Part shown: piece by piece, positions 4,024-30,731 of the stretch
How positions within the stretch are numbered: position 1 is the stretch's first letter
How the letters are laid out: every line of letters begins with the position of its first letter
Assembly (NCBI GenBank): GCA_950295325.1
Contig: OX485805.1
Location: 1,304,501 to 1,368,500 of the forward strand
DNA: 64,000 nucleotides
Direction: 5' to 3'
DNA from: Polytrichum commune
Taxonomy: Eukaryota; Streptophyta; Polytrichopsida; Polytrichales; Polytrichaceae
Notes under the pieces: generated by a model
Databases searched by the model: none
What the model was told of the DNA's origin: nothing
What the model saw: only the letters and a program-made list of their open reading frames with translations
Position numbers and translations under genes: made by a program

Positions 4024-4575
4024 CTAGCTTTCATCAGCAAAGTCGTTGAAAACTTTTTCATCTCCCAGATGTAACTCATAAACATTTGATTCACCAATAT
4101 ATGTCATTGTAGCCAATGCAATTATTGTCTCTAAGTCTACCATCAAATGATCAGTAAGATCATAGGTCCACTTGTTGTTAGCCCCTTTTTGATACCAACA
4201 TAAACCAATCTCCACGTTTGATGGACGGTCCATCAAGTCAATTGGATCCCTATACTCCACCCAACGATTATCAAACTTCCTCCGCATCCTATAAACTCTC
4301 CCAACAAACCAAACCTTAACTCGAGTAGATTTTTTTGGCCTACCTCGTTTTTTCACAGTTTTAGCTTCAGGTGTGTTCAAAAAACACACACCACAGTCAC
4401 AACCAAGCTTTAACAAAGTGTCATGGTTTCCAACACTCGGGAGTTTAGGCTTCATATATAATATACTAGATTTAATTCGAGTCAACCGATCTTTAGACAA
4501 AGAAGGATTGCCATTCAATTGACTAACAAGTGTATTTTTAAAATTTCTAGACTCCCCTACCATTACATAAGCCAC
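4024..4575 (-). CDS. Hypothetical protein with AT-hook-like motif
   Basis: An uninterrupted 183-codon ORF starts at ATG 4575 and ends at 4024, far longer than expected in such AT-rich DNA. I do not recognise the family. Visible features are a Cys cluster (CDCGVC) at about residues 59-64, directly followed by a basic KKRGRPKKS segment at about 75-83 that resembles an AT-hook minor-groove binder. The C-terminal half is mixed, Trp-rich (WVEYRDP, CWYQKG, KWTYDL) and ends acidic. The surroundings are repeat-rich, so a transposon-derived or lineage-specific gene is possible. No intron is needed. There is no signal peptide or membrane segment. It may also be the last exon of a larger gene extending above 4575, though no upstream exon was evident. 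Confidence 0.45.
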   Translation of the reverse strand: MAYVMVGESRNFKNTLVSQLNGNPSLSKDRLTRIKSSILYMKPKLPSVGNHDTLLKLGCDCGVCFLNTPEAKTVKKRGRPKKSTRVKVWFVGRVYRMRRKFDNRWVEYRDPIDLMDRPSNVEIGLCWYQKGANNKWTYDLTDHLMVDLETIIALATMTYIGESNVYELHLGDEKVFNDFADES

Positions 4576-7500
4576 AACTGACTTTGCATTTTATAGAGAG
4601 GGAATTTCAGAATGAGGCCATGACAATGTCAGGACTTTCGGTGATTCCCACGGCGGCAGTAACCGTAGGGACGCTGAGAAGCGCTGGAGCAACAGGTGAA
4701 AGAAGGAAAAATGAAGTAGTTGTCGGCAAAAGAAGCAGGCTATGCGAAAAGAGAAAACAAAAACCTTCAGCACCCGACAAAAAAAGAAAACAAAACCTAG
4801 GGATGGGAGGGGAAAAGGGTCCTTGTTACTTTGAGCTGAACGAATCATTTCAAAACCCTAATACTGCCTCTTTCCCCGATATTACCTTGACACCTTGTAC
4901 ATGGTTCATACTACCCTATAAGGTTGCTAACGAAAATCTTTAATCCTAGTTAATCCTAATTTCATCCAATATGAAAACTTATGATATGTAGTATAATAAC
5001 AGTACCATACAAGTACAATTATTGTATATTTTTTAAAGGCCTTCCATATATGTACGTAACTATAAATTATAACATGTATACCATATGTATACGTAATACG
5101 GCAAGGTCCAAATCAATACCCTTCCTGTGCACTCACGTATACTCGTACATGTTTAGTACAGTGCACCCCCCGAGCTAGTGCCCCCATCTAAGAAACTCCC
5201 ATCTCACATGAAATTCCATGTGTATCATAATACGATGAGTGGTACTTAATCATCTCGCCAATTTGCAAGCACTAGCTGAAAATAATTCCAATATCCTTGT
5301 TGTATATATACTCCAATGGTATTCAAAAAGGTGATAGTAATCATGAATTAGTCCAACACTCATTGGAACTCTTTGAATCCACATTACCTAGTGTGAAGGC
5401 AAATGCAACCAAACAATTAACTAGAATGACTAAGTTCATCATGAATCAAAATGAACCTGCAATCCATCGCCTTCAAGTTAATAGCAATTTATTGTAGTGT
5501 TCTCTTGCAATTGGTGTGCAATGGTAATTTCCTAGGGAGAGGTGATCTAGGGTATGTATGTACAATAAAGTCAAATCTTGTGCGTTTGGATTGTGCAAAT
5601 AAGGTAGGTGGTATGTGGCCTATTTATGGACATTGGAAATTGAGATAATAGTTTAGCAAATATATGTTATATGCTTCTCCAAATATAAAAACCTAATGGA
5701 GTCATAGCATGAGTTATGTGCACGCACAACAAGTCCACCCCCTAGTACATTGTGATATATACAAAAGGTGCATATTACACAAGGGCCATGCCATAATATT
5801 CTACACACTAATTGTAAAACGCATCCCATCATGATGGGAACATTGGAATTGTGTCAAGAAAATGGAAAAGTAGAAGATGATCAAGTAATTCAAATGCCAT
5901 ATAAACCGGTTTATGATCCGTCCATTACGCTTATGTGCATCTTCACTGGCAACTAGTAAGAATGGAAATATAGTCCATATATAATCTAATTGTTAATTAT
6001 AGGTTATTGTGATTTTTTAAAAGTAAGCCCAAAATTACAAAGTCTCGTCCAAATTTTTACATTGAGGACATATATTCAATATATCCACGTTGAAGTCTCT
6101 TATAAAACCTTATAGGACAAGAACGTGAAGCATTGAGACGGAATTTCCCTAAAGTGTGGAGGAATTCATCTAAGTGCATTGTATGGGTTTTATATAGAGC
6201 TATGACATGTAATGCTATTCAAGTGTTCAAATTGAACAAACCAACAATGCACTTGGCACCACTATGTGTGTATATCTCACAATAAAATAGATAAAAAATC
6301 TAGATAATCTAACAAATATGAATAAAAAAGACAACCACCAACCACATAATGATAAGCACTCCGGGGGTTCATTGGCAAAAATTGTAGAACAACGTGCGAT
6401 AAAAAATAGGGTCTAATATATTCATTGTAGATAAATTTTGTGAAAAACTTACATATAAAATAGGGGGGTTTTAAAATAGTGAAAAATGATTACATGTAAA
6501 ATACCATCACACCTTTATTTTGAAAAATACCATACCTTATAATACTTTTTGCAAGGTAAATAGCCCCCCAATAAATAGGTCCCGAACGCACGTGTATGCA
6601 AAATATAAGAGGGAGTGAACCCCCCGAGGATAATCAATTGTTGGTTGTAGTAGCGAGGGTCTTCACCTTATTGCCAACCCCACTAGCTTTGGGAAGAGTT
6701 TTGGGCATAATTGGTCAAAATCCTTGTGATATTTCGGTTGGCGTCTGGAAGCAAGGCAACGAAATGAGCAAGAGAAGGTGAAACCCTAAAACAAAGCTCC
6801 TTTAACAAAAAAACCTCCCTATTCGATGACCCCATAACATGCCAATACACAGTCCGTAAATACCCATGGCATGACCAAGACGGATTCATCATTGGGAAAA
6901 GAGGCCCCCACAACTCCAAAATTTTGGTGAACTTCTCCTGAGAAGTGTTTGACAACAACCTTAAGAAATTAGCTAGGCGAAAAACTCCGGGCACTAATTG
7001 CACATAGCAGTTTAATTAGTGAAAGTAAGCATACTTCCACATGTGGTGATGGTGCTACAGTGTTCATCGTAATGAGTGTCACTTACTCTGGAGTTACACC
7101 ATGTTTTTACTTTTTTACTTGTGATGTAAGATTTCACCAAGTAAAGTTGATTATGTTCTATAACCCTAAACAACCTATTTGACCTAGTATGTTGGCAAAT
7201 AATGATATATATACAAAATAGTAATAGCCTTGTGTAGTTCCAAATAGTATGTGACACAAAATGTCATAAAGGATGTGGTGAGGCATCTTCATTGGCAATA
7301 ACTATGTTACAAGGCCCTCCGAGATATAGTAGATTAGGCGCATTCTCTTGTGGGGTCGTCTTTGTGCATCAAAACTGCAATACCCATATGCACACTTCCA
7401 AACACAGCTTAATTGAGATTATTGCAGGCCATCTTATAATGGCTTACATTATATCAATCATCCCTATGTTAGGTGTGGGCCAGATTTCAATGCCAAGATA

Positions 7501-8500: not shown

Positions 8501-10500
8501 ATGTATTATTATTATTATTATTATTCCGCACAAGACATGAGACCATCTTGTTGCTTATTGCTTAAGTTGCTTATAACAAATTGGCATTATCATTGATGAG
8601 ATGAAAGCAAATGAAAAACGCTCTAGCTACAAAAATACTTGAGTGCCACAAATCCCCGGGCCTAGGGCTCCCTTGTGTACATCTACCTTTACTTTAACAT
8701 TCTTAATAGCCTTTTTCAATGTACATACTGCAACAAAAATAAATACCTCTCCCATTATGTATACTATGTATGCTAATACCTCAAATAATACCCCTTTTTA
8801 CACTCACATTAATTCATACATGGTATGAAAAGTCCAACCCCCCAAGACTAGCTTGTGTGTGTGTGTGTGTGTGGGGGGGGGGGTAGAGCAGGTAAAGTGC
8901 TTAATTAAAAGCCCAAAAATTATTGTGAGGTTCAAAAAACAAAGAGATATATCTCCAAACTCCAAGGATACAATATGGTGGACCTTGAAGTGGTTGGAAC
9001 CCTTAATGTTCTTCTTTTGTTATGAAACCTACTAAGGTATGTGGGTGTTATATGGTTCATTTTTCATGTTCTCCAACATCTACCGATTAGATTTACACAA
9101 CCAAACTCGTGTTGCACTAGCAAATCTATGATAAAACATCTACAAAAACCGGATTGAAATTTGAACCTACCCTAACTTAGTTATGGTTAACGGAAGTGCA
9201 CGTTTGTTGATTTCTTAACTGGATACATCGCCCCTCCCAATTATGTTCACTATTGAAGGTCAAGTAGTTATTCATAATTGAAGACGTTGTCCAATGTCTT
9301 TTAAACATGTGTCTTTGTGACATTTACTCTTAGTTTCTCACCAAATCACATACCAATCAATTATAAGGGTCCGATTAAGAAAACGAGCCACTTAAGACCC
9401 ATGTATCTTATAGATCGAATGTGAAAGGGCACAACCATTTCCAAGGGACTTTCTAGGCAAATTTCCACCTTTTGCACCCACGAAGGGTTTTCATAACCTC
9501 CCACCAAGCTTAGGTGATCGGACTAAGGTAACCCTCTCTTTATCTCACCATAACTTAGACCAACATTGAAACCATCTCTAACTAACAAAATCAAAGGCGA
9601 AACAATAAATCAGCTCCAAGGCTGCACTATCCGTTAATACCGAGCTGTGGACTGGCTTTCGAATTCCTTGTCACTATTGACGGCCTGCTCGAGATCCGAG
9701 GTGGGCTTGGATGCCGGCCATGGAATTGATGAATCGATGGCACTTTGTTGCGGTTCAAGTAATTGTGAAGACAGCTTTGACTCGAGATGACATGCCAATA
9801 GAAAAGGTTTTTAATTCTTCGTCCTCTTCGGAGTTTGATTATTCCATTGACAACTCAGATTTTGTTAAGGGCAGTCTGCAAGGCTTGTCAATTTAGCTGT
9901 GTTATTACCAGCTCGATCAGAAGCCTAGATTTTATTTTACGTATGCAGGTGGTTGCTGTGTAGATCATGCATGTAGGTTTGCGGGTGAGCTCATTTTTTC
10001 CCAGTTGCAGACTCTTTGCAGCGGGAGAATCAAGAACTGCATTAGGGTTGTTGTTGACCTCACAGTTTTATGCCAGTTTTGGTTGCTCTTTTTTACACAT
10101 TTTGCAAAGTGGAAGCAATAGTCTGTTCTCCCTTCATCGGACAATTCTAGATAAACCTTCAATGCGCTGAGACCCACGTAGGAACTGCAAACTGTTGCTG
10201 CTGTTTCCTGGTTTTATGACCTAATTTGCGCAAAATCCACAGTGTATGTGAATTGGTGGTTCAATGGGATCATGCTGAAGGGTTGGCCAGTAGGTCGTGT
10301 CTATGTTTGTTTGCCAGTTGACTGGTGAAGCAAATGCGGAAATTAGTTACAAAGGCTATAATTCTTTGCTGCAGGTTAGGTTTCACCTGCTGGTTGCGTC
10401 AAATTCGTACCTATTGGTGGACTTGGGCGGGAGTGAAGAGAGTGCATATATAAACATATACTTGCAAACTAAATAGATCGAACAATGAACCGGTGACGGG
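8501..10500. other. Intergenic DNA upstream of the DZIP1-like gene
   Basis: Contents are an (ATT)n run at about 8506-8526, then a (GT)n tract followed by a long G run at 8852-8883. At 8640-8661 lies a segment (GAGTGCCAC.AATCCCCGGGC) that recurs at the edge of the Harbinger remnant near 41795. From about 9600 the composition becomes less AT-rich, which suggests promoter or 5' UTR of the gene starting at 10501. The short ORF at 9711-9896 has no recognisable domain. Confidence 0.4.
8852..8883. repeat. (GT)n microsatellite followed by poly-G
   Basis: About nine GT dinucleotides run directly into a stretch of roughly eleven G residues. This is a compound simple repeat prone to slippage and sequencing error. 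Confidence 0.8.
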
Positions 10501-13500
10501 ATGGTGAGACGAGCATTGAGTGGGGAGTCCCAGCCTGCTCATGCGGTGTGGGCTGCTGACAAGAAAACTCGAACATGCTCAAAGGTGGCAGGGACAGTGG
10601 CCACACGAAGACGTCGTGTTCGTCATACACATCCCAAGAAACAATTGCTGTCTGCGAGCACGAGTGACAATGTGGGAAGCTCGCCCAATGACATGGGGAA
10701 GGCAATTAAGGACCCAGGCCTCATGGTCATGGCCTCCTCGACTGGGTACACCACAGAGACGCTCGAAAGGGAGGACACATTCCTCAAGGACTGGGAGAAG
10801 CCCCGGAGAGTGTCCAAGCACGCCATTAACCATTCCAGCAATCATGCTGCTGCGGCATCAAAGCAGGCTCCACCCAGCAGCACCAAAGGGAGTGCCCCGT
10901 TTGTGTTTCAGAAAAGGCTTGCGAGGATTGACTGGCGCACGCTGCACACAATCGATGTTGATCGCGTCACCCGTGAAGTTGGTGTGCACACATATCACAC
11001 AGTTGAGGAGAGCCGATGCATGATTTTTTAAATTTTTATTCCATTTAAATTTTTTTCCTGATTGTATGTACGTGGAATTGTAAAGGATTGCTCATTTGAT
11101 GGTTTATCCATGAACTTTAGTGAGGTTTAGCCACGATTTAGCTTCATTCTCAATTAAGGTTTTTAGTTGCATTTGACAGTTGAGTAGAGCTGATGCAGGC
11201 TGTTGTTATTGTTGTCCATTTCTGATTGGTTCCGATTGTATGCATTGGTAATTTCAATTATACCTGATTCGATGGCTTCTCTATGATGTTCAGTGAGGTT
11301 TAGTCTGTTTTTGGAAATTGGTTCATGATTAGGGTTCTCAAAGTAACTTTGGTTGAAGAGATGCATTCAATTCCGATTATATGCATATCTTGTTTCAGAT
11401 TATTTCTGTTTATTATGGAGTCCAGTGAGGTTTAGCTTGTTCGTGGAGAAATTCTAACAATAAGGGTTTTGATATCCATTGCAAAATTGTCTTTCGAAGT
11501 CATTTCTTAAACTGTTCGCCATTGACACTAGAGACGGGCATGGGCTTGGGTGTGGGCTGTAGACATTGACACTCTAGAGTCAGTGCTTGACACTATTGCA
11601 TTTGGTGATATCCAAGGTGAAGACACACGCAATTTCACAGAGGCAAACTTTGTGAAGATCTTCCGGCTCGCACAATTGATGGTAGCACACCATTGAACCA
11701 TCCACCTCTCTTTTGTCCCCACTTGTTGGTGGCACACCACACGCACTTGTTGCAATTTCGTTCTCCAAATAGTCCAATGTATTGTCTCTTGCAACCAAGT
11801 GTCTTCGTTGCTTTCTCCCAGCACCAAAGAAGATGCCTCAATATTAAAGTCCTCTCCAGTACTTTATGAGCTTATAGCTGTGAGATACTTCTTCTCTTGT
11901 AAACCCAATGATCTTTGAAAATGAAATGCCTTTTCGAACTGTCCTAGGGAAGTTCTTTGAACCAAGAGTGCATGCAGGTAGAATATCTGCTCCATGTGCA
12001 GGAGCTGCTAGCATCGCACAAGTCAGAGTTGCTGTTGGCAGGGGCCACCATGCAGCAGAAAGGAGAAAGACTACGATCACGGTATATGTGGCAACGCAAT
12101 GCTCTTTTGCAGACCCGCCATGACTTGAAGCAAGCCAGAAAGGTATCATCTTATCTAAACCATAAACTTCTCAATCAGTATGCACTTTCTCGTTGACTTC
12201 GGTTTTATGTTTGCAATCAATACATTTTATACAAGGATGATTAGTAGACTCAACTAGGGCAACCTTTATGCAATTTCAAGTTATTAAACTGGATTTTGAG
12301 ATAGTCACGTGGTCTAGTCTTGTATATTGCAACCTTCTTTTCATGGATATTTGGCATGAATGAGCCATGAATATGATGCTAGACCACACGCAATTTGAAT
12401 CGTTTGGAAAGTTTTATAATGCCTCCAAGTGGTATGCAGTTGTTGATAGACTCTGATGTCTTGTGGGAGGTCTCAGACTTTAAAAACATATGAAGTGATG
12501 CTTAAAATGCAGGGGAAGAGCCAAGTACCTCCAAACAATCAACAGGTCAGTATGCAGTGCCACTATTGCTATCCTCACCATGCATGCACAGGAGATTCGA
12601 TTTACTTATTAAGATTGTTGTCCCAATTCTAGTGTTTGTAGCGAAGGAACTGTCCATGTGTTGATTACAGTTGTGGTAATTGTGTTTCAGGTCCGGCATT
12701 GCCCGTTCTGTGAGAAGATGTTTGAGTCTGCATATTACCTCGTGAGTTTAAATTGACTTGTTTCCTACTACAAGAGTAGATTATGTCAGATCTAAGAACT
12801 CATAGCTTTGGATCCTCCAATCTGTTGATGTGTACATTGATTCTTCTGGCTAGATGTTTCAGTTCTCTCATGTATTAGGAAGGATCATAAGGATGCCAAC
12901 AAACAATAGAAGGCTGTATTATTGGTGGTTTCTTAGTTCATTTCTTCAAGGAAAGAATGGGGTGTCAGGAGTTTCACATTTCCAGGAGGCACCCAAAAGC
13001 TCAAGATGTGACTGAGGAGAAAATCTTGGCTGTGGTGTCCAAAGCTGAAGAAGCTACTGCTGCAAGGGTTTGCAACTAGACCTATTCCAGCTTCCTTTCA
13101 GTTTATTCCTGAATGAAACAGTAGCTTTTGCTTTCTATTGCTGTAAGTAATGATTGGTCAAGGTTTCTCCAGAACTCTCATTGGCACATTGAATTTTGGT
13201 GTTTTTGTGAAGCTCACCTCCTCAGCCATGTCTGCATTTTTCTGAAAATGTAGGAATCCAAAAGTTGACAATTGCACTCCTATGTATTGTTTTAGATTGT
13301 GGAGCTGAGTGCAACATGCATGTAGGTGAACCAAATCTACCTGTCTTGTCTGCCAGTTCCTTCAGATTATTACATTACAGTTATCTCTTGAATTTGTTCT
13401 CTCTTGAGCTACCGGTGGTCAATGATTATATCGATTTGTTTTTGCGGTCGCAGGTGAAAGCAGAAACAAGTGTAGCTGTGCAAGCTGAAATCCAGCAACT

Positions 13501-16500
13501 CCATGAGAAATACCAGGTCTTTGTTCCTATACTTTCAACTACCTAGAGTTTGTCCATTCTTGTGAGTGTGGTGACTTAAACCTTCCCCGTAACCATCTGA
13601 TTAAACTTGTTCCGGCTTGAGCATAACTTCATCCAGATTATGTGTGTGTATATATATATATATATTCAAATTCTCCCTTACAAAATGTGGTAGCAAATCA
13701 TTTAGTTGAAGGTGCAAACTAGAAAATGAGGACAAGAAAATCTAACCATTTCAGAGGTACAATTGACAGGGGGACTTGCAAAGGGCAGAAATAAATGCAA
13801 ATGCCCAGGTATTCCCTTAAATTTTCATGTCTGATCATGATACGTGGCTTTTGTTTCTAAAGACAGGTCTTTGGTTAACTTCAAGCACTTGACACAAAGG
13901 CACATCAATAGTGGTTGGCTGTCATTCTCCTGGCAATTATGGCATGTTATGGGTTTTGAGCTCCTTCAATTCCAATGAATTTGTAGACTCGTCCTACATA
14001 TGTGCACCTTTTTTGAGATGGATCTATGACATGTATATTATAATTCGAGATCCAGGTGAAGTCATTACAAGCGGATCTTAAGCTGAGTACTAGTCAGCTG
14101 CATGATTTTCAAAACCGCCTTGAGCTTCTTCAGTCCCAAATCCGTTCTAGCTCACCAAGTGTAAGTGTGCTGATATTTTGTTTTCCATCCACCATCCTCC
14201 AATTCTTCTCCATAATTCCTCAACCTTTTTTGAAAGGAAGCTACTTTAGCGAATTTTGCATGAAAGTGGTTATGTACTGTACTCATCATGAGAAAACATT
14301 GTGATTCTGATGATCAATGTGTTCAGAAGACAGGCCGGCGTGGATTGTATGCAGTAGACAAAGCAAATGAAAAGTACAATGGTCCTGACCAAGAGGTATG
14401 AAAGAAGTCATTTGTGCATGGAGAGTTATTTCTGGATGATAATAAAGTGCTCGAAATAATGGATTGGTTGAATGTCTATTGATTGAATGTCTCAGAGGCT
14501 GTTTGAGCTGGAGTCCAAGTTCACAGGTTTGGAGCGTCAAGTGAAGACTCTTGGTCAGGTTAGCTTCAATAACCAGCAATGCTCTAGTCAAATATCATCT
14601 ATTTCAGTATTATGCATTTGCCCATGACATGTATGTCAAGAAATTTTCAGGCCTCCAATGTAATGAATATCTTAAAAGGCTCTTTTCTCAGTAGTATGTG
14701 GATGGAGCAGGAGAACTCAAGATTATTACAAGAGCTGGATTCAGCATACAATGAAGTAAGATCTAATCACCAACCTGCTGAGTGTGACCAGTTGTATAAC
14801 AGCATATAGAGTTAGGAGGTGAACAACTGTACTTGGAGTACATGGAAGTGGTGGGAGATCCTTAGGCTTTGTGAATGTAGCGGAAGTGGCTTTATTCATT
14901 TTCAATCCTAATGCAATTAATTTCTGGTTTGCTTTTATTTTACAGGTCTCAGATTTGAAATCAGGGAAGAGATATTCTATCTCTACATTGGAGACTCAGG
15001 TCATCATTGCCAAAACATGCGCTTTGTGTATGCCACAATGTATTTAAAGAGACACTCTTCGTGTCAAAGAGCATATTGTGATAAATTTTAATTGGATACG
15101 GAAGTGGCATGTCAATTAGCAGTTTTGATTTTTAGCCAGCGACTTTCAGCAGAGTACTTTCACAAAAAAATTCTAATTCTGAAATTCAATTATTTTGTTC
15201 ATTATATAAGCTGGCATAGTGCCTCTTATCAAGAAGTTTCTCGTTCTAACATGACATTATTTGTTTTAGAGAATCCAGGTTTTGATCCACATTTTTAATT
15301 TGCAGGTAAAGGAGCTGCGCAAGGAGAACCAATATCTGAAGAGAAGCATGTCCAAGGTAAGAAGCATGGCTCACACTGGCAAAGTGGACGACCGTGTCGA
15401 CAATCAGAGGTTTAAAGCTTCTGACCGGTTTATGACATCCATGATGATTCCACTTGAAATCCCACAGCTTCAATTTATGGAAGTTCCAGTGGAGTTGATT
15501 AAAAAATTTCAACCTAATGACATAAACAATCTTGTTGATGGCCTCTTGGAAACCCAGATATTAGAGGAAAAGCTTGAATTTGAGCCTGGACACCCTGGAA
15601 CTACCACTTCATTTGAGAATCCAATGAGTGATCATAGCAACAAACCTGGCATAGGGGATTCGAGTTGCTTGAATGATGAGCAACCGGAGGAAATAAATGG
15701 TTCAGGTGCAGTTGATAGTGTTAAGTTCGTTACAAGTGAGAAATTTGAGGATTCATCAACTCCAGTTCATCACAACTTGCAACACATTATCGAAGAAAAG
15801 ACTGGGATCAGTGTGCCCTTGAGGGAAGTGCAGCTTGGGGACTTTACCATGTTGACAGACATGGTATTGTCTGTCAGGCTAAATTAGTGTAGTGAACGAC
15901 ATGAGCATGTAAATTGGGAAGCACGGTTATTTCTGGTGCAAGGGCTTCAAAGCCATTTTGTTGATCGTGGTACAGTTAATTCATCACAATCTGATATGTT
16001 GTTTGGGAACATGATGATTGCAGGTTGAGGAAGAGCCAGCAGCTCTCACAGTGTTGCTGAAAGAAAGGCAAGAATCTCCACGAGATTGTTGGACAAGAGA
16101 ACCTGAGAAGGATCAAGCACTTCTTGCGTTAGCTCGACCGACACTTCAGAGACGCAAAAGGGAAACATCTGCACATATTAAGATTGAGGAAAGAGAGTGG
16201 GAGTCATCTCCAGAGCATGAAGAACCTCATAGACACTCCATTTTACCTGTCAAAGGAGAATTTAAAGATGTCAGTCGACAGAAGAAGTATGAGACGTCCC
16301 CGGAAAGGAATCTGAAGGGGATGTCATCGTCACATGTGGAGAAACCTAAAGCTTCAACTAGCAGGATGGTATGCATTATTGACCAAGGCCTCGTTGTTGA
16401 AATGCACGGTATTGGCTTAAAACACGATTGAAATTCAAATATGTCCTTTAAAGTGTACTGCAAAAATGTTTGAATGAAGTTGTTCCTTGTGGTCCTGCTC

Positions 16501-19500
16501 AAAATACTGCAGTTGAAGGGGAAAGGGCAGCGAAGTCCAAGCACAGTGGAGGAAATGCGTGCACAGCTTGACAGGGACATGGCTGCTGCCCATGAGGAGG
16601 AGAAGAGGTGTATACAGTTTTGTGCCCTATCCTCCTTGTCACATCATTCTGCATATGAATTATTTGAAGTTTGTTCAAATCACTTTATAACCTGTCTACA
16701 ATTTCTACAAGGTCAGCCTTTGCCTCGAAGCTCTATTTTGAAGTTATGTGGATGGAATAATCACGGGAGATTCATTCTCAACACAAAGGTTCTACACGCC
16801 CATTTCATCAGTACTTTACTTAATATGGGTGTCTAGACCCTGCATGTCTGTGCGGGTATGTGTGACACATAGTTTGTCTTGAGATTCAAGGTTCCAGGGC
16901 AATTTCTGTATTCTTCAGGATGTCCTCCTCCTTCCAGTGCTGGTGACTCGTAGTGGGTGCACAAAACCTTGTTCATCATGTCTTGGCATAGAAAATAGTA
17001 TGAGCTAACAGTGAGCAGTTGTGTAGGCGTCAAAAGGCAGTCAAACAGCTCTTGACAAAGGAGCTCGAAAAGGAGAAATTGGAGGAAAAGAGGAAAGGTA
17101 AAAGAATCAGAAAGGAAGATGATGATAGTGGAAGGCAACGGTCTACTACCAAAGCAGAGTATTCTAGCGAAAGTGTAAGTACTCGGAACAACTCTTACAA
17201 TAAATACCACCTGCTCAATCAGCAAGTGAGTTTGAGGGCAGGTGCAAACTGTGATTGTTACTCTGAATCACATATACAACTTGTGCATGAGTTTGACTCA
17301 ATTTTAGGGTGAGAGCTGATGTAGATTCAAACCGATACTTACACCATGGTTAATGCTATTGCTGTTCACCAGTCAATACATCCTTAACCATCTTTTCACC
17401 TTAAACCCTGCCAGATCGTACCTCTTCTGGCTGGCCTCCACAATACAGAAGAAGGTACAAAACCTCCACCAACCTCAGCAATCCACGTGCTCAGGAATAT
17501 TGCTAGGAAACAGGAAGAAGCCAAAGAAGGGCGTCAGACCTCAAAGCCTGGTACTCTCCGTGAGAACACCTGTGCACATCCATTTGCTTCCCCACCTCCA
17601 TATTTCTCCAAAAGCAAAAGCTCCAGAACTTCCCTTCAAACAAAGGCCAGAACTCCATCTGAGCCTGCAAGACGCATACAAACTGAGGCAGCACTTGTGC
17701 TCCCTATTACACTCCCTTCTAGCAGCTCAGACAAAAAGGCTAGGAGAGGTGCTAACCTAATCTCAGATGCATCAACATCCCATTCTGTCCTCCGCAATGA
17801 GGACCAGATTGCACTTGCTCTTAATTTGGGAAAATATTTCCCAATCTCGAAGACTATAAGTAACAAAAAAAGACTTGGTGTGGTTTCTGCTACCCAAAAA
17901 TTGCAAAAATTAGCTAAGCTCAAGACTGAATTTTCAGAGCTTCCTCGATCACCCCAATTTCATGATCCGGTGTGTGTTCTTCTCTCATAAGTACATCAAA
18001 CACTTCACGGTTAATGGTAAACTGTGTTCTTTTGCCTTAATAGTGAACACCTTTGGAGTCCATAATCTGTTGAGATGTGAGAACCTTGTTATTATTATTG
18101 CAATTTGATCAAGCACACTTGATGACTTCTCCAGTTTCTTAGGACACCACCGTCTAACCAGGCATCATAGATCATAGTACATGGCTTGTTGCCCTCTACC
18201 ATGAACAGCTGCTTTTAGTCTACCATAAATAGCCGAACTGTGATTGGCATATTTTCAGTGGCCTTTAAAGTCTTCACTAATTTTTTTATTTTTTATTTAA
18301 AAAAAAACAAGGTTGTGCTTGGTTGAAATAGTATGCTATTTGCTGAATGCAGGAGGACGATTCAGGAAAAAGAGGACTGGAAAAAGACAATAAGAAGGTA
18401 TCTGCTTTTTCTCCCTCAAGGGTTGATTCTAAACAGTATTCATCTTTGTGGGTTTCCCTTCTATATGTCATATTTTATCTGATCCTTGCAGGTACATAAG
18501 ATTGAAGAGATTGCTGAGGTAGCAGCCATGGATGTTGGAGAAGAGATTCCCACTATTCCAATCCCAGAGAAGCAGAAGTGGCTGAATGAGCATCCTTATG
18601 TTCCAATCTCTACCTTGTGAGCTACTTGACCCAATGCTTTCTGCTCACTTTCTGATAGCATTTTCTCTTGTAAAGACACTAATTCCCCTAAAGGACGCAC
18701 CACAAATGTCAATTTCACAAGAAAATATAAACTGTAGGTATGGTGTAATTTCCTTTGAATAATGGGAGAAGTGATCAATTTCTTATTTGTACAAACTATA
18801 GGCCACATGTGTTGGCGAAGTACCCACATCCTGAGACAGTATTTGAAGAGACGCACGAACAGCTTGCTCATGTACTGTATCAATCCCTTGAATGCCTTAT
18901 GCACATTGCCTCTCTGGCTCTCTATTATTCAAATGAAGTAGGCTGTGTTGGAGGTAATGCACATATTAATGCCTTAAATGCAATTTTGAAAATTAGATAC
19001 CAGCAGGTGGGGTTCTGTTCTGTATCTTGTTTCAGACAAGAAGAGTTGGCAAATTCAATTTACTATCAGACATGACCAATTTTGGAATCACTGTTTCCTT
19101 GTCAATATGAGTACAGCTTGTTAGTTTACATCTACTCATTGTACCCACGTTTTGTACGTAACACTGACGCAGCTTTGATGCTAATAAAGTATTGGGACTA
19201 TGGCAGCAATTTGATGATCAACTCACTGAAGAATTGAAGAAGTTTGGAATCAAGCCAGATGCAAGTGGTATCAGGTACTAGAGACTCCCTCACTGTTTCC
19301 TGTCCTTAGAAATCTCCACCACCTTAGTACACTTTCTCATACTATACTATATTGTGCCAATATGTTTACTTTCATGCGAACAAAGAACCAAATTCAGTGA
19401 AATCAATGACTATTTTGCAGCGATACAGCATACAGTTCTGTGACTAGCGCACTAGAGAAGCAAAGGTTGCAGCGTATGTCTCAAGTTCATGGCAATGACA

Positions 19501-22500
19501 GGCGCCTTATGGAGTATGAAAGAGGTGCTATAATCTGGCATACCCAGGTAAGCCCATCGAACCATCACCCAATTAGGGATCACTGCTAGACGTCACCTAA
19601 GGGTGAGTCAGTAGGTCAGTGTCTTTTGTTAAACTTAGGGAACAAAGATGTATTTATCTTTGTGCCGAACATAGCAAAAGATACTTCTTACAGCTGATAA
19701 GTAGATGATAATCAAGTACATTTTCTACACTGAACAATTTTGTTCGTTGTGGTGCAGAGGGCAGTGCATGATCGAGATACAGAAATCATTGAGTCACAGT
19801 TCAACGTGGCTACAGATTGCTCGTCAGCTCACGAAACTGATGCCAACGCATCTGAGGACAGCAATGATGATGAGGTTCGCACATAGTCCTCTTTTAACCA
19901 ACTGCACTACAGAACTGATTTAGGATGACATTTAAATTGGTGTGCCATGTTAATAAGAGTAGTCTTCATGACCTGTCTTGTAGCACCAAGTGTCACAGGA
20001 TACCCTCACTAGTTGCCACCCAATGAACTCAAGGCAATTTATGTGGGTTGATGGTGGATAGTGCGGGCCATACTAAATTTGATGTTTAGTGTAGCGTGCC
20101 ATGCAATAATACTTTCATAGTAATTTATCCTTAGTCTCTCAGAAAGTTATGTTTTGGTAGGGAGTTTCGCCCCACTTTTGACGATCTATGTTGTTTAAGA
20201 AGCATCCAAGTGGTGTCAGAATCCCCAATTTTGGTGAAATGAAGGGGTGGTGTTTGACTTTGGCCAAAAGACAGATTTATTAAGATGGAGTTCATGGCAA
20301 GCTTTTGAAGGCACCTAAAATGGTGCTATTGAAAGTTTGACAAGGAGTTCATTTTTGCATGTTAACCATCTCTTTGTCAAAGTCAAACACCTCTGCTTCG
20401 ATTCAATAAATGTGGCTTCCGACACTTGAATGCTTCTTAAACATTACGAATTGTCGTAAGTGGGGCAAAATTCCTACCAAAACATGACTCTTTGAAAGAT
20501 TTTAAGATAGACTCTAATGTCAGTGATCATGTTGCAACCAATCTCAAGATGTAAACTTCTTTACTCAGCATAAACATACCTTTTGCTTTAGTCTTGTTAG
20601 CTGTGAACTGGTTAGGCTTGGCATAGTTTCATGCAATGCGGGGTAGTTACCTTCATAGAGTATAGTCTCTCTATCTTCAATCGATCAGGTAATTCTTGAC
20701 TTAAAATTTTCTTTCCTTTGTGACAATTCACCAAGTAAAAAATTGGTGTGCCTGTACTTGTCATTCTTCAAAAACCATGACACCGATTGATTATGTTTCT
20801 GTTGAGCAGGCTGATGACAGTAAGTATAATTCAAGCAGAAGCCACCAATCTGATAGAAGCTATGAATCAGATGACTTGAAAATTACAAAGCCACAAAAAG
20901 ACCACACTGAGCAGCACATAGAGCACAACCCAAGAGGGGACACAGGTGACAGGGAGCAGAGTAGTGCTGAAAACAGTGAGAGTAGTGACAATCAGAGTGA
21001 GCAATCAGTTGAAGTTCCTCATAGAAAGGGAAATCTGACAAAGAGTAATCTGTTTCGGTCGAAGAAAGCTCAGTCTAGGTTGCGTCGTGGCTCGAGAACC
21101 CCACCAGATAATCGAGCTCAAGATGCCTCCAGGTGCTTTTCCAGGTGCAAGTATGTGCAATGAATCATTTTAGCATGAAACATTCCAGTAGAGCCTTATT
21201 TGCTTCAGTCCAGTCCTTGAGAATGCAAACCATTTCTATGTTTTCTAGTGCTTATGCAAGATATCTATAAATTTCAGGTCATTTTCTTGGAAGCCTAAGG
21301 GGAGACCAGGAAAGTCGGTGAAAGTCATCCGAGATCCACCATCACGAGGTGAGTTGATAATTCCTCCAGCCAAGAAAGTTGATGGTGCCATGAGGGATGA
21401 GCGCGAGGAAGTGGATGACGAATTGGGTCTGGGGGAATGGGAGAGTGATGAGGAAGCCTCACAAACAAGGACAACAACTCAGAGGTGATAATTCTATGTA
21501 ACATTTGCAACTTTGCAGTAAATCTGCAAGCAATTTGGCCTTCTGTTTCCAGATTCAATGTCACAATCTAAGGATAGGATTTAAGATTCCCACATGTATA
21601 AAGGTTGTTACATTATTTAGAAGTGGAAGTTGATGCACGTCATTATGTTGTAGTCAACACATATGAGGTAGTAAGGTCATGATTTGGAGTATAAGATGAG
21701 GCAGAACTGAAGAAATCTTTTATTACAACTATCTGCCCCAAATGCAAGGACATGTTTCTGCTCTACGGTATTAGAGTGTATAGAAAGACCAGAATAATAT
21801 CTGGCTTCTCCACCTCTCTCTCCTTGGTGCCTGCATGCTTTTCCAGATCTTTGGGGCAAACACGCATGATCAAGAGGAGACAAGATCTGGGAGGAAATAC
21901 ACCTTTGTAGACCCAAAAAAACCATGCTATGATCTCTCCTCTATAACCTTTGGGCGCCAGTCACCCTCGAGGACTAAGTGCCATCTTTCTTAGCTGCTTG
22001 GCAAATAATTGCAGAGGAACTCTTATTATCAGGTGAAAAATGCCTTGAGGATGATATATTGTCATTGAATGTCTTACATTGCAGAAGGGTAAATATTGAT
22101 GATCACGAGACTGCTTCCTCATTGAAAGCAAATGGCAAGATTTTTTTTCCATTTTCTTCATATTTCTTTACTGCAAACATCTCAATGTTTATCCTCTAAC
22201 AATCATACCTCTACATGACGTTGATGTTGGAATTATGCGAAATTACAGAGATTTACTGAGCTTTTCAATTGCCTGTAAAAAATAAATTTGAACCTATGTT
22301 TATAACAGTTGATCATTACAAATAAACCCAAAAACCTCATATTAAATAGATTTTTTTTATTATTGTTATGCAAAATGTAATTTATGAAGAGATGTGTACT
22401 GCACAGGTGATGTCCTTCGAGATTTGTCTCCACCAAAGGATCTACTCCCAACAAAGTCAAGCTTGTTGTATAAACCTGCAGAGAAACAATGCAGACCATC

Positions 22501-22600
22501 ACGGAGACCAAGTCCTTCCAAATCAAGTCCCCAGAAAGTCTCCTCTGCCCAGATTGGCATTCTGGACGATAAGAATGCCAACACCATGTATCCTTTCTAA
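10501..22600 (+). CDS. DZIP1: DZIP1/Iguana-type basal-body zinc-finger protein
   Basis: Twenty-eight exons join in frame to 1476 codons: 10501-10981, 11563-11681, 11978-12142, 12513-12545, 12691-12741, 12969-13067, 13454-13516, 13770-13808, 14056-14160, 14327-14395, 14496-14558, 14711-14755, 14946-14999, 15306-15863, 16024-16368, 16513-16607, 17027-17174, 17415-17969, 18353-18397, 18492-18616, 18802-18871, 19207-19274, 19421-19547, 19758-19874, 20810-21150, 21278-21484, 22085-22134, 22407-22600. The DZIP1 N-terminal domain spans about residues 133-255: the RIDWRTLHTIDVDRV motif, then ED(T)RNFTEANFVKIFRLAQLM, then VEYLL. A C2H2 finger follows (C270, C273, H286, H291, ending RRHP). Coiled-coil stretches, a long charged Ser-rich region and a DZIP1-like QFDDQLTEELKKFGI segment near residues 1110-1130 complete it. 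Family knowledge: DZIP1 acts at the ciliary basal body and transition zone and, in vertebrates, in Hedgehog signalling. Here the inferred role is sperm flagellum assembly. Weakest points are the exon 21 end, the exon 12 acceptor and the last three exons. Confidence 0.85.
10999..11480 (+). repeat. Three imperfect tandem units in DZIP1 intron 1
   Basis: The intron carries three related units starting near 10999, 11177 and 11350. Each begins GTTGAGnAGAGCnGATGCA or a variant (the third is shorter) and contains the shared core AGTGAGGTTTAG at about 11119, 11291 and 11423. Spacing is roughly 130-175 bases. No coding frame runs through them. Confidence 0.65.
20147..20487. mobile_element. Foldback MITE, Mutator-like features
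   Basis: A 341-bp element lies within intron 24 of the DZIP1-like gene. Its left end TTATGTTTTGGTAGG is matched inversely by CCTACCAAAACATGA at the right end, and similarity continues inward at least 70 bp (GCCCCACTT, TTTAAGAAGCAT, CAAGTG). An inner pair (GTGTTTGACTTTG and its complement) makes it almost a full hairpin. Flanks CTCTCAGAAAG and CTCTTTGAAAG match at 9 of 11 positions and look like an aged target duplication. Long terminal repeats with a 9-11 bp duplication suggest a Mutator-type non-autonomous element. No transposase is present. Confidence 0.75.
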
Positions 22601-25600
22601 TGACATGTGAATTGCTAGAGTACATTAGAGCTATGATCCCCAAAGAGATAGATATCTGTTTGTTAGACCACACGAAGTGCATATCCTCTTGGGAGTATAA
22701 AATGCAATGAAGTAAAAGTCCAAGCCCTTCAGGAAATATATGAAGGTGCTTGGGAGGTTACAAACATGTATTTAATCCTAAAAGGGTCCCTTAAACAAGT
22801 GTCTTCATAGATTGCCACTCTGCAGTGGTTATGCTCTTTAGTGAGCTGCAACTACTAGAATTGCAAAATCATCAGCTGTAGAGTTTCAAAACAATAGAAG
22901 AAATTGTCCAAATTACTAAATTTAGGTTAAAGAAAACGAGTTTAATGTCGAATGAATACCTACAATATTTGAATACCTATGATATTTTGGCGGCTTTTCA
23001 CAATCACATGTTATTTTCATCTACCCTTTAAATATTGGCTCGACTAACCTAGGATACCTCTTTTTTGAGGATGCTCATGTAATGTATGAGAAATTTCTTA
23101 TAGTTTTCAAAGACAGCAACAAACCCATTGTTAATAGAGATTCCTTGTAGTTGGCAAATTGATATATACAATGGTAGCACATGTTTATGCAAGTCCTTGA
23201 CAATATGAGTAGTGTACTCAAATGCAAAGGGAGAACAATGGAGAACACAAACGACAGTGAAGGGAGTGAAGAGACCAAGATATTCAATGAGTTGACTTCA
23301 GAAATAGATGACATTATTAGTTTGTAGGCACTGAGCAGTCTCATTTGGTCAAAGCAGTTTGTACTGTAATATATTGATTTGTGCAGATTTCCTTAGAAGT
23401 TTTGTTTAGGGTCAGCCGATCGTAGATTTGAGCCCAAGTTTCTTGAAGTTCTCAGACTATAGTACTTCAAGCACGGTCTCAGTTTGCCTAATTTCACAAG
23501 TAGAAATTACAACTCGTCAATTTGAATTCAAGTAGCAGCACACCATGGATTGATTTCATTTCCACGCCTCAGAACCTGATCTCCTTCATCTGGGTATTGT
23601 GAACAAACCACCATTCTGGTTTGGACATATCCTGTGCTTCCAATTGTGAGTTGACATCACATTCTATCATATACCCTAGTGGCCTCATTCTTGTATGATC
23701 ATAGGTCAAATGTACTAACACAAGAACACACTACATATTGGTTAAATGAAGTGAAAGGTGAGCTCCAAGACTAATTGTACATGATTAAACTCTAAAATAT
23801 TTATAATAGTTTCAGGTTTGTTCTTTCAATTGGAAATTTGTGGGTGCATTTTATGAAGTCAGAAAATACCTTGGCAATATAAAAGTTCTGAGTTTCAATT
23901 CAATTTGTGATCAAGTAAATTAACATTGCAAGTAAGAAATGGTGGCACACATGTGTACATGTCTCCAATGGGTCCAGTGAGAACTCACTGGTGTGGTCTT
24001 CAATAGCCATGAATGATGGTGGTACGCCATTCCGTCAATTTATGGTCCAACTCCTAACTACCCTCTCCATTGCGATACCGTGGAGGCATTGAAGCAAGAC
24101 TCCTGTTGGGTTGTTAGAAATCAGTATCAATGTTGTCCGTCCCCACTTGCAATAGGGATAATGCACAGCATTACTTACCATCCCAGCATGATTGTGGTGG
24201 ATAATTTGAATGTGGTGTTCCAAAGCATGCCAATCTCCTAGCAAAGACTAGGTAGAGCTGAGATATAGTGCTGTCCAAATAACATCCATTGGTAATTAAT
24301 TTCATGCTTTTACATCTAATGAAAAAATCTACTAGAGGCTATCCCAAGAAATATTAACTGCTACAGTTCATATTTGTTAGAATTGTGCAGTTGCCTAATT
24401 AGTCAAGAGGGTGTTTTCCTCTTGCCAAGTCAGACAGTTAGGTACCTGTTAGCCTGCCATTCTGGACTTCAATGCACCATCTTTCTCATTATTAAGTTCA
24501 CGTCTGAAAAGGCACATCTATTTGAACTTGAAGTTACGTCAGGTAAGAAAATCTTGACGAGATCATCTGCATCAACATCTCCCTGTCAAGACTCAAAACT
24601 CTTGAGGACAGAACAAAGTCTCAGTATCAATGAACAACTAGTGTTCAATTGAAAATGAGAAGTCTGATCAGTCGTGGATAGGATGAGTTTATTGCTATTT
24701 TTGTTGGAAGCAGCATAGACTGCAGATGCCCGGGGTTAGCTCGCAATACCGCCATTCTCTGTCACTCTCTCACTTACGAATAATGGTGGATCTGCCCTAA
24801 TGATGCAAAGTGCATATTCATGGGTTACCACTAACATTGAAAGGTTGCTGGAAATATGGACGGAAACTTGTGATGATGATGATCGAAGGTACAGATTGAA
24901 TTCAAGGTGTTGTGCAGGTAAATCCCTAACAGTCTCCTTGGAATCCTCTCTGGCACGCCTGCCGACCTGCCCCCACATTCCTTGCCTGTTGCGAAGTGCA
25001 CATTCTTCCAGCTGCTCAGATTATGAGATGGTGGCCCGGCTGGCTGGAATATTGTCGCTACAGGTCGCCTTTTCTTGTTCTTTCTTTCCTACTGCGGACT
25101 TTGTTGCAACGGTGGAGACATGATGTTACAGCGGTGTTGCTGATTCTCCTAGTCCTGGTTGTCGATTTGGAGGCTGCATTGTCTCCCGGAGATGCCAGCT
25201 CAGAAGTGCAACAACCAGCTAGCACCCGCAATAGAATACTTAGAGTTGCAAGTTGTGCGAGTCTATCTCCATTTCTTCAAACTTGTCAATCCATGTTTCT
25301 TTCACCTTCTACCTCCTTGAAAGAAAATTTTGCACACATTGAAAGGAAATCTGCCTACCACCACCTTGCCACCTGGAAATCAAGCAATGCCAGTAATTTG
25401 GTGCAATTTCGTTAGTTAGCATTGCACAACAGCTTCCGTTCACTTAATGTGAAACTGGCATTGCAAATCCAATTTATAAGCGGAATCGGAACCCATTCCT
25501 GCTTCTTGAAAATTTCCTCTTCTCCGGGTTAACTTTGTGATCCCCCTGATCGTAATGTAGGCTCCGTTAGTTTCCAACGAGCATTGTAAACACCATCGCT

Positions 25601-25777
25601 ACTGGAATGCATTTCTGCTGCTTGGACGCTTTTTGGCAAATTCTGGGTTCATATCCTTTAGGCAATCAGATCCTACTTTTCTGCAATTTCGGACTACTTC
25701 TAAAATTATCGCCACCAATATATTCTTGCACAAATAGAGCTGCCTTTATGGTCCTCCGCTTGGACTATTAATCCACC
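22601..25777. other. Intergenic region between DZIP1-like and LEA_2 genes
   Basis: The first part is presumably 3' UTR of the DZIP1-like gene. From 22700 to about 24700 only short ORFs are present and none shows a domain. From about 24750 the DNA is less AT-rich with overlapping ORFs in two frames (24800-25123 and 24996-25415). Neither resembles a known protein, and they may lie in the promoter or a long 5' leader of the LEA_2 gene. Confidence 0.4.
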
Positions 25778-26440
25778 ATGGGCGCAGCAGGAAAGCTCAA
25801 CGTAACAATCGCGATGGTGGAGTCCGAGAAGGGATTCATGAATTGGTACCGAAACCTGTCACCGAAGTCGAAGAGGCGGTTGGGATTCTGCTGCAAATGG
25901 TTCGGCCCACCGTTGATCGTGCTCGCGGTGGCGATCCTTACCCTGAGCCAGACGATCTTCAAATTTAGGGACCCAGAGATCACTCTCACGGATGTCAAGT
26001 TCACGGGAGTGAAGGTGGACGCCACGAAGCCATTGACCGCGAACTCGGTGAACGCATCGCTGTCTGCCAACATGAATGTGCGCAACCCTAACCGATATAA
26101 CTTCAAGTTCAGCAACAGCACCATCCACGTCGTCTACCACGAGATCATGGTGGGCAACATTTCCATGCCCGCAGGTGAAATTCGGGCACAGCGAGCTGTT
26201 GACCTACCTGCGCTTGTCACCGTCGGCTCCCTGCGATTAGGGCGAGCCTTTGGTAACTTAACTCAAGACTTGGTGAAGGATGTGCTCCCCTTCTCCATGA
26301 GCACCATGATCCCTGGCCGTGTCAATGTGGTCCACTTGTTCAAGCTCAATGTGAAGCTCGAGTTCCACTGCGATGTTACCTTCTGGATCGGCAACTCCAC
26401 CATCAAGGATTACCTTTGCTGGCGGAAGGTGCACATGTGA
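25778..26440 (+). CDS. LEA_2 / NDR1-HIN1-like membrane-anchored protein
   Basis: A single-exon ORF of 220 residues. A short basic cytoplasmic N-terminus (PKSKRR at about 29-34) precedes one hydrophobic segment at about residues 42-61. The LEA_2 beta-sandwich domain follows at about 65-200, with the family's typical core NMNVRNPNRYNFKFSNSTIHV and a later FHCDVTFW strand. Several N-x-S/T sites (N92, N113, N127, N160, N206) fit an apoplastic or lumenal C-terminal part. Family knowledge: LEA_2/NHL proteins are linked to desiccation and stress tolerance or to pathogen response at the plasma membrane; the exact role here is unknown. ATG 25778 was chosen because CCACC precedes it; an internal ATG at codon 13 is an alternative. 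An AATAAA occurs at about 26577. The coding part is clearly more GC-rich than its surroundings. Confidence 0.9.
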   Translation: MGAAGKLNVTIAMVESEKGFMNWYRNLSPKSKRRLGFCCKWFGPPLIVLAVAILTLSQTIFKFRDPEITLTDVKFTGVKVDATKPLTANSVNASLSANMNVRNPNRYNFKFSNSTIHVVYHEIMVGNISMPAGEIRAQRAVDLPALVTVGSLRLGRAFGNLTQDLVKDVLPFSMSTMIPGRVNVVHLFKLNVKLEFHCDVTFWIGNSTIKDYLCWRKVHM

Positions 26441-28086: not shown

Positions 28087-30731
28087 CTAGTGGAAGTAAG
28101 CCTCGTACAGAAGCTCCTCATCATCAAGCCCACGCCCATCCGCCATGGCCTTGACTTGCTGCTGAAGCAGCGACTCCTGTTGCTGTTGTTGCTGGAACAT
28201 CATGAGTGCAGAGTCGTAGCTGACTGGAGACACTGAAGGTTCAACTACGCCAGGTGCGGTGGCTGGAGGTGATGGTGCTGATCCAGTCGAAGAAGAAGAT
28301 GCAGGGCTGGGTGGTGAAGGGGAGGTAGAAGGTTGTCCAGCCGAGTTTTTGGGGAAGTTGAGATTGAAAGGGGTTCCGGATGGTCCTGCGCTCTGAATGT
28401 CCGCACTTGGGGGAGCAGGAGGAGAGGGATTAGTACTGGTGTCAATTCCTGAGCCTTTCTGGATGGGTGGAGCACCGGAAGGAGCAGGAGTGGGGTCCAT
28501 TCCAAGGCGAGGGCCGTGTCTGGGACCGTATCCTCTGCCGCTTGCACCGTTCTCTGGAATATGCCCTCCAGCCATCGGAGCCAAAGCGCCATCGCTGGTG
28601 TACCTGCAACATGTATATGGAATTAAACCAACTGGGTTTCTGATGTGCACAAAACCAGGAAGAACTCTTGAGATAAGGCCCTGTAGAACAGTTTCGGTTT
28701 CTGAATCAGTTGTGATGCTTCCATCCATACATTGATGATATTTTGTTTTTTCACAAAGAAGAGCAACAACATGCTTGGAAGAGGACTATCAGAGGAATCC
28801 ATTCATGTAATTGGAATAAAAATAATTGGGTTGCTGATGTGCACAAAACTAGGAAGAATTCTTGAGATAAAGCCCTGTACAACACTTGGCAACTCGCCCC
28901 TGTAGAACAAGTTACACTTTCTAAATCAGTTGTAACGCGTCTAATCATGAACTGATGATATCTCGCAAAGAAGGAAAATGTCCTTGAAAAGATGACTATC
29001 AGCGGAATCCCATTGGTGTAAATGGAATTAAGCTAACTGCGTTTCTGATGTGCACAAAACTAGGAAGAATTTTTGAGATAAGGCTCCATAGAACGCTTGG
29101 CAACTCGCCCCTGTACAGCAGTTTTGATGCTCAATTAATGAATTCATGCTGATATTTTGATATTCCTCAAAGAAGAGCAACAACATGCTTAAAAAGGGGC
29201 AATCAAAGGAATGATCCATTCATATCATGTGTGTCTAAATTAGATAAGGTTTGCACATTCAGTGTCATTCTTGAAATGATTTATCTGAAGCAATTTTGCA
29301 AAAAGCACACCACCCAGCCTACCCGAGCTAGGTGGATTTTTTCACTTCTTAAAAAAATCCTAGAATTTCAAAGAATCAATAATCTTATAAATGCCTGCGA
29401 TGTACAACATTAGATCCAAGACACTTCTTCTTAGACGCTGAGAAACAAGAGATTATGTTGGTGTTGAATTTTGGCTAGAGTTGGATTGGTACAGTACCTG
29501 GGCATATATAGGCGGCGAAGAGCCTGCTCATCCATGGCCTTCTTGATGGGGTCGACGATCAGGCGCCGAGAGCGCACCTTGTGGGTCTTGCACAGCTGCG
29601 GCAGATACATGCCTGCCATGAAATACACTCATGTTTTGCATCACAAAAAGGAATCAAAATTATTTCAAATATCACTTGAGATCAATAGTTGTAGAGTGGA
29701 TCTGTGCACTTAACATATTTTTGAGGGAAGGGATTGGGCAGTGACCTTCGCCGGCAGCGAGGCTGATGTAAAGGTCGATGATGTTGGGGCAGTTGTTGAG
29801 GCACTCTGGGGAGCACAGCATCTCCTGGAAGTGTGAATCCAACAAAAGGTCGGTGGAGAGACCGAACGACATCCGCTCCAGTCCACATGACTTCACACAT
29901 TCGTCTGATTCGATCCACTCCTCTTGCTTTTCGGCCATGATGATGGATGACTGCATCACACATTGACCAAAAATTTCATAAATTTCCAAACGCAACGTGG
30001 CAAGAAATTTGTTAAGAAGTTGAGAAGTTGACAGAAATTTGTATATACATATATCATATATACTAGACCTCAGTGTGTGTGTGTGTGTGTGTGTGTATCG
30101 TGAGCAGCAGCAGATTCTATAACGGCAGAGTAATTGGTCCATCATTTGGCGCAGAAGGCTTTTGTAATTGAGTCTGAGAGTTGTACGTAAATTACCTGGC
30201 ATTCAACGTGCATCGTGGCATCTTTGCCTCTGTACTTCTCCAGCACGCAGCGCGCACCGGATGAGGAGACGGAAAATGCACAATCCTCAATTGGCAGATC
30301 CTCACATTCCAACTTCCCTGCAGAATCACACAATTCCAAGTTACGGCACAAGAAGATAATGTCAACTATCATGCCTCTGTACGGTCACCCTCCTGTAAAA
30401 TTTTCAGTGTGCATCATTTGAGGTAATGTTTGTGAATTGGAGAGAATAAGTGAGACTTGTGCTGTTTCATTGATGTTGTTGATGGAAAGTGCAACAACCG
30501 TTGAGTATGGAGAAGAACTGTTTGTTGCAGGGGTTGATTCACTGGTGATTTGTATCTGAATCTTACGTATTTTTGCAGGATAATTACGCTTGCATAGAAG
30601 CCACTAAAGAATATAAATGAATAATTGAGAAATATAAAGAAAGGATTGAAGAACCAACCAAGGACACCAAGGAGACATGATAGGGAAAGAGCAATAAGAA
30701 TGGCAGGCAACACTTCTCGCAACGGCGTCAT
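28087..30731 (-). CDS. PAR1: PAR1-family secreted protein with Pro/Gln-rich tail
   Basis: Five exons on the minus strand, in order 30731-30668, 30317-30196, 29950-29746, 29612-29498 and 28603-28087, join in frame to 340 residues. All introns are GT-AG with consistent phases. Residues 1-22 form a signal peptide (hydrophobic AILIALSLSCLLG). The PAR1 domain (about 23-165) has the family's cysteine pattern: CEDLPIEDCAFSVSSSGARC, WIESDECVKSCGL, LCSPECLNNCPNI(I)DLY, LAAGEG and YLPQLC. Family knowledge: PAR1 was described as photoassimilate-responsive in tobacco; its biochemical role is not established. Typical members end near 180-200 residues, whereas here about 170 further residues follow, rich in Pro, Ser and Gly, with a glutamine run near residue 310 and an acidic end. 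Most of the tail is in the last exon. Secretion to the apoplast is inferred. Confidence 0.9.
28610..29230. repeat. Three-unit tandem repeat in PAR1 intron 4
   Basis: Three diverged copies of a roughly 200-base unit begin near 28615, 28808 and 29022. Each contains TGATGTGCACAAAAC, AGGAAGAA, TTGAGATAA and GAAGAGCAACAACATGCTT or variants. They are intronic and have no shared reading frame. Confidence 0.8.
30073..30096. repeat. (GT)n microsatellite in PAR1 intron 2
   Basis: Twelve GT dinucleotides lie in the intron between exons 2 and 3 of the minus-strand PAR1 gene. Confidence 0.85.

Follow-up and report, generated by a model that had tools for sequence, protein, structure and literature searches.

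Animal DZIP1 is known for building the base of cilia, and the family is marked by a single C2H2 finger, a coiled coil after the finger and a conserved C-terminal segment. A window of 64,000 nucleotides from Polytrichum commune contains a candidate gene of this family. The locus raises the question of whether a land plant keeps a sound DZIP1 gene, and of what the protein would do there.

A BLASTP survey published in 2025 covers 11 species and lists DZIP1 as one of six satellite proteins that the flagellated species have and the non-flagellated lack; it reports it in Chlamydomonas and its absence from Arabidopsis (PMC12203921, as far as the text available goes). Because the survey ties DZIP1 to flagellated species including Chlamydomonas, an ortholog is expected in a land plant. 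Land-plant DZIP1 is thus the expected ortholog, and its interest lies in its persistence where the usual partners were not found. No paper on land-plant DZIP1 was found in the open-access literature, a scope outside which most subscription journals lie.

Gene model and domains

The gene was rebuilt by hand from the plus strand, the region from 9501 to 24500 being read (Table 1). Exons 1–15 were joined first and then exons 1–26, all in a single open frame that begins with ATG at 10501 and runs through 1448 stop-free codons to 21484. 25/25 introns have GT-AG ends, the median intron length is 227 bases, and GC content is 0.47 in exons versus 0.38 in introns. Because the exons were hand-picked, the GT-AG ends and the continuity of phase arise partly by construction, and neither the open frame nor the phase is independent evidence of coding. 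Exons 1, 14 and 18 lie in 3/7 open frames of at least 180 codons in the window. Just upstream of the chosen start, at 10485–10496, three codons and a stop make up a short open frame.

Table 1. Features of the DZIP1-family locus, with positions counted from the first letter of the window
Feature	Position	Strand	Evidence or remark
DZIP1-family gene, exons 1–26, 1448 codons, 3′ end not fixed	10501–21484	+	Open frame, 25 GT-AG introns, PF13815, codon score
Dzip-like_N domain, residues 134–248	10900–12121	+	Exons 1–3: 10501–10981, 11563–11681, 11978–12142
C2H2 finger C270 C273 H286 H291, split by an intron	12700–12992	+	Exons 5–6: 12691–12741, 12969–13067
Exons 7–13, seven short charged exons, each starting in phase 0, that may encode a coiled coil	13454–14999	+	Composition
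Exons 14–19, long charged middle without Pfam match above cut-off	15306–18397	+	
Exons 20–24, block called DZIP1-like in the original prediction; exon 21/22 junction uncertain	18492–19874	+	
Exons 25–26, tail rich in Ser and acidic residues	20810–21484	+	Composition
Last exons of the original prediction (near 21.85 and 22.4 kb), no in-phase join at the sites tried	21846–22600	+	Codon scores
Long imperfect fold-back in intron 24, non-coding	20135–20499	.	Self-match in opposite orientation, folding

The joined protein was compared with Pfam using hmmscan. Dzip-like_N (PF13815) matched with 100.7 bits against a curated cut-off of 27.9 (E 6.5e-29), aligning profile positions 1–115 of 118 with residues 134–248 and running from exon 1 through exon 2 into exon 3. 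Just after the domain the zinc ligands C270, C273, H286 and H291 are all present, and the Pfam finger models score below cut-off (zf-C2H2_4, 12.1 of 27 bits; zf-Di19, 11.7 of 27.5). By its domain match, the protein belongs to the DZIP1 family. The original prediction had claimed this membership, an N-terminal DZIP1 domain and finger residues at exactly these numbers, and had chosen a comparison of residues 133–291 with the DZIP1 profile as its own test; the match found there, over nearly the whole profile, leaves these claims standing.

Exon-wise profile search of the genome (407,808,757 bases, 64 contigs) gave two Dzip-like_N matches, both in this gene and at the same place as the domain. Since both fall in it, the gene appears to be single-copy and is the only Dzip-like_N gene that this search found in 408 Mb.

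Exons 21–24 hold the C-terminal block that the original prediction called DZIP1-like, and they may correspond to the conserved C-terminal segment of the family. Given alone, they matched no Pfam family at E 1 or below. Residues 1065–1230, within exons 20–24, are 34% hydrophobic, above their surroundings. Comparison of exons 21–24 with the PDB returned 8 matches up to E 10, the best of which (E 0.0022) fell on the repeats of a designed PPR protein and contained no stretch that passed by itself. The N-terminal 499 residues returned three (E 0.61–0.78), to two zinc fingers and an ephrin receptor. These matches were rejected, and no DZIP1 structure was among those to either part.

Ciliary genes of the host and the partners of DZIP1

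Four further ciliary families besides that of DZIP1 were searched exon-wise in the genome, and three were found. SAS-6_N matched at one place (E 2.1e-19), DHC_N1 (dynein heavy chain) gave 9 matches at two loci, and ParcG (PACRG) gave 8 matches on two contigs, C1 and C2 (best E 8.0e-31), its model of 183 positions being matched in pieces. Because these families match, the genome encodes parts of centrioles and axonemes, which supports the prediction of a ciliated host. By gene content, the centriole and axoneme genes are consistent with flagellated sperm.

Matches to the fourth family, IFT57 (PF10498), were rejected. The 6 matches cover profile positions 222–354 only, lie overlapping in a stretch of about 1 kb on C2, and were read as a coiled-coil repeat; the profile also gave sub-cut-off matches in three archaeal control genomes. 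Near 59.30 Mb on C2, overlapping open frames of 508–558 codons carry coiled-coil-like IFT57 matches, probably within a repeat-rich stretch. The DHC_N1 and IFT57 searches gave matches past 55 Mb on C1 and past 59 Mb on C2.

In the window, 10 of the 56 open frames of at least 90 codons outside the gene were scanned against Pfam, and 4/10 matched (F-box, PP2, LEA_2 and PAR1). PP2 and PAR1 are plant families, and the four matches agree with the predicted plant host.

The locus is probably the one DZIP1-family gene detected in a land plant, which most likely has flagellated sperm, and its product would serve basal-body docking and Rab8/RabE-type membrane delivery. The original interpretation is supported as a whole, its ciliary side indirectly, by the gene content of the genome and the published survey.

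Seven further profiles were searched by the same exon-wise method, which is insensitive to weak or split matches, and 7/7 had no match in the genome. Those of FAM92, Chibby (up to E 1), CEP290 (one model, CEP209_CC5), B9-C2, Meckelin and Tectonic (TCTN) matched nothing anywhere, so the absence of these proteins is not shown by this result. SUFU, of the Hedgehog pathway, likewise gave no match in the exon-wise search, which is weakly in line with the predicted absence of Hedgehog signalling.

A full animal-type module (CEP290, DZIP1, CBY-FAM92 and MKS) might be present and have been missed, given the insensitivity of the search and given that CEP290 homologues are hard to detect by sequence and can be missed (Barker et al. 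2014, PMC4092220, available portion). This seems rather unlikely, since the same search found PACRG in pieces of a 183-position model, SAS-6 and two DZIP1 exons. Furthermore, the same portion of that paper describes Physcomitrella and Selaginella as apparently without all known transition-zone complex proteins, reports these proteins as missing from mosses and ferns, and notes that sperm of land plants, where examined, had no Y-links. The available part of its method does not list DZIP1.

The gene might instead have been taken over in the plant for a non-ciliary task, for example plasma-membrane traffic or cell division. Several usual partners were not found, and no known domain was seen in the long stretch from the middle to the C-terminus, as such a takeover would have it. 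We regard it as improbable because the domain and the residues of the finger are well preserved, centriole and axoneme genes are retained in the genome, and the survey, in its available text, ties DZIP1 to flagellated species (PMC12203921).

Coding signal and the 3′ end

Codon log-odds were trained on exons 1–13 versus introns 1–13. Exons 14–26 joined scored +0.204 in their own frame; the remaining forward frames gave +0.080 with 37 stops and +0.029 with 99, and 36/36 forward frames of introns 14–25 were negative. The own frame was the best of three forward frames in 10/13 of these exons, with a tie in exon 25, and was beaten by another forward frame in exons 21 and 22. Exons 20, 21 and 22 are weak (+0.04, −0.08 and +0.01, respectively), and one reverse frame of exon 21 reaches +0.07, above its own frame. 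An alternative join of exons 21 and 22 was rejected because the frame breaks there; ending exon 21 at 18953 and starting exon 22 at 19190 restores the frame, in a join that is still uncertain.

The original prediction had described an apparently intact gene of 28 exons with consistent phases, 1476 residues and an end at 22600. These observations were partly confirmed. The 26 exons join without a stop, and over their 1448 codons the gene may be called intact, which does not extend to its 3′ end. Exon 26 ends in phase 2, whereas a join would require phase 0 for the frame near 21.85 kb (codon log-odds +0.14) and phase 1 for the one at 22.4 kb (−0.02). Because of this mismatch at the sites tried, which were chosen by eye and non-exhaustively, the last two exons were dropped, and the count of 28 exons, the length of 1476 residues and the end at 22600 are unsupported. 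That the gene is a damaged or decaying copy is very improbable: a 3′ end for which no join led to a stop codon, together with the weak scores of exons 20–22, would suit such a copy, but 26 exons hold no stop in 1448 codons, exons 14–26 together carry coding signal, and the exon-wise search found no other copy in the genome.

Neighbouring features of the window

Within intron 24, self-alignment of positions 20135–20499 in opposite orientation spans 374 columns with 69% matching (E 2.6e-33). The segment 20150–20485 folds at −155.1 kcal/mol (z −12.6), and 0/100 shuffles were as stable. No other copy was seen in the window at E below 0.28. Candidates for its identity are a fold-back transposon and a small-RNA precursor of recent origin. 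Rfam gave nothing at gathering score in the window; the only candidate around the fold-back, mir-3119, was rejected because its 19.5 bits fall short of the gathering score, 80.

On the plus strand, an F-box open frame (388–861) is followed by PP2 (phloem protein 2) at 1639–2247, the two probably forming one F-box/PP2-type gene. The LEA_2 open frame lies at 25772–26437 (+) and that of PAR1 at 29675–30202 (−). Two open frames on the minus strand, 4027–4590 (188 codons) and 28090–28785 (232 codons), had no Pfam match at E 0.01.

Proposed role

Because the plant protein keeps the N-terminal domain, we infer a role in basal-body docking and Rab8/RabE loading. In flies, DZIP1 is recruited by CEP290 and itself brings in CBY and Rab8, the latter being bound by the N-terminus of DZIP1 (aa 1–293) with a preference for the GDP-like mutant (PMC7793253, available sections). 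Fly DZIP1 thereby stands between CEP290 on one side and CBY-FAM92/Rab8 on the other (PMC6904220 and PMC7793253). Mammalian Dzip1 frees Rab8-GDP from GDI2 via its middle region under regulation by GSK3beta, the Rab8/GDI2-binding stretch being mapped to aa 373–600 and 430–600 (PMC4393111, partial text). Since binding lies in the N-terminus in one case and in the middle region in the other, these sources suggest that the Rab8-binding part differs between fly and mammal.

By analogy with flies and mammals, the plant protein would be made during sperm formation and sit at the distal end of basal bodies. There its N-terminal domain, finger and following region may recruit and load a Rab8/RabE-type GTPase, which would deliver flagellar membrane, allowing basal bodies to dock and flagella to grow. 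More tentatively, DZIP1 may work in this setting without CEP290, the MKS complex and CBY-FAM92, none of which was found here.

Some points speak against the proposed role in docking and membrane delivery. Mammalian Rab8/GDI2 binding lies in the middle region, and the middle region of the plant protein has no Pfam match. Furthermore, DZIP1 is not universal in ciliated organisms: Dzip1, Cby and Fam92 homologues are all undetected in C. elegans according to the accessible part of PMC6904220, suggesting that cilia can exist without these three.

A possible but less than probable extension is that in land-plant sperm DZIP1 has outlived the transition-zone complex and CBY-FAM92, and has a Rab8/RabE-type GTPase as its only partner in basal-body docking and membrane delivery. 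This task, and not transition-zone gating or Hedgehog signalling, might then be the oldest in the family. Non-seed land plants are reported to be without the transition-zone complex and Y-links, yet they grow sperm flagella (PMC4092220, portion available). DZIP1 kept in such a plant would offer a natural system for probing its complex-independent task with a single knockout, and its retention identifies the host as belonging to a lineage that has flagellated cells.

Comparison with known systems

DZIP1, DZIP1L and Iguana of vertebrates and Dzip1 (CG13617) of Drosophila have a Dzip-like_N domain followed by C2H2 finger residues, an order that is also found here. Unlike the animal proteins, the plant protein has a middle and a tail without Pfam match, and CEP290, FAM92 and CBY were not found in its genome. 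With 1448 codons modelled, it is also longer than fly DZIP1, of which the C-terminal construct ends at aa 737 (PMC7793253, available sections). The Chlamydomonas homologue, reported as present in the survey, is likewise a member from the green lineage (PMC12203921, available text).

A further comparison is with flies, in which Dzip1, Fam92 and Cby make up one ciliary-base module, with Dzip1 believed to have roles that go beyond Fam92 (PMC6904220, accessible part). CEP290 (one domain), CBY and FAM92 of this module were not found in the present genome by exon-wise search. The whole fly assembly of CEP290, DZIP1, CBY, FAM92 and Rab8 works at the ciliary base, including that of male germ cells, and DZIP1 is the component common to both systems (PMC6904220 and PMC7793253, in the parts available).
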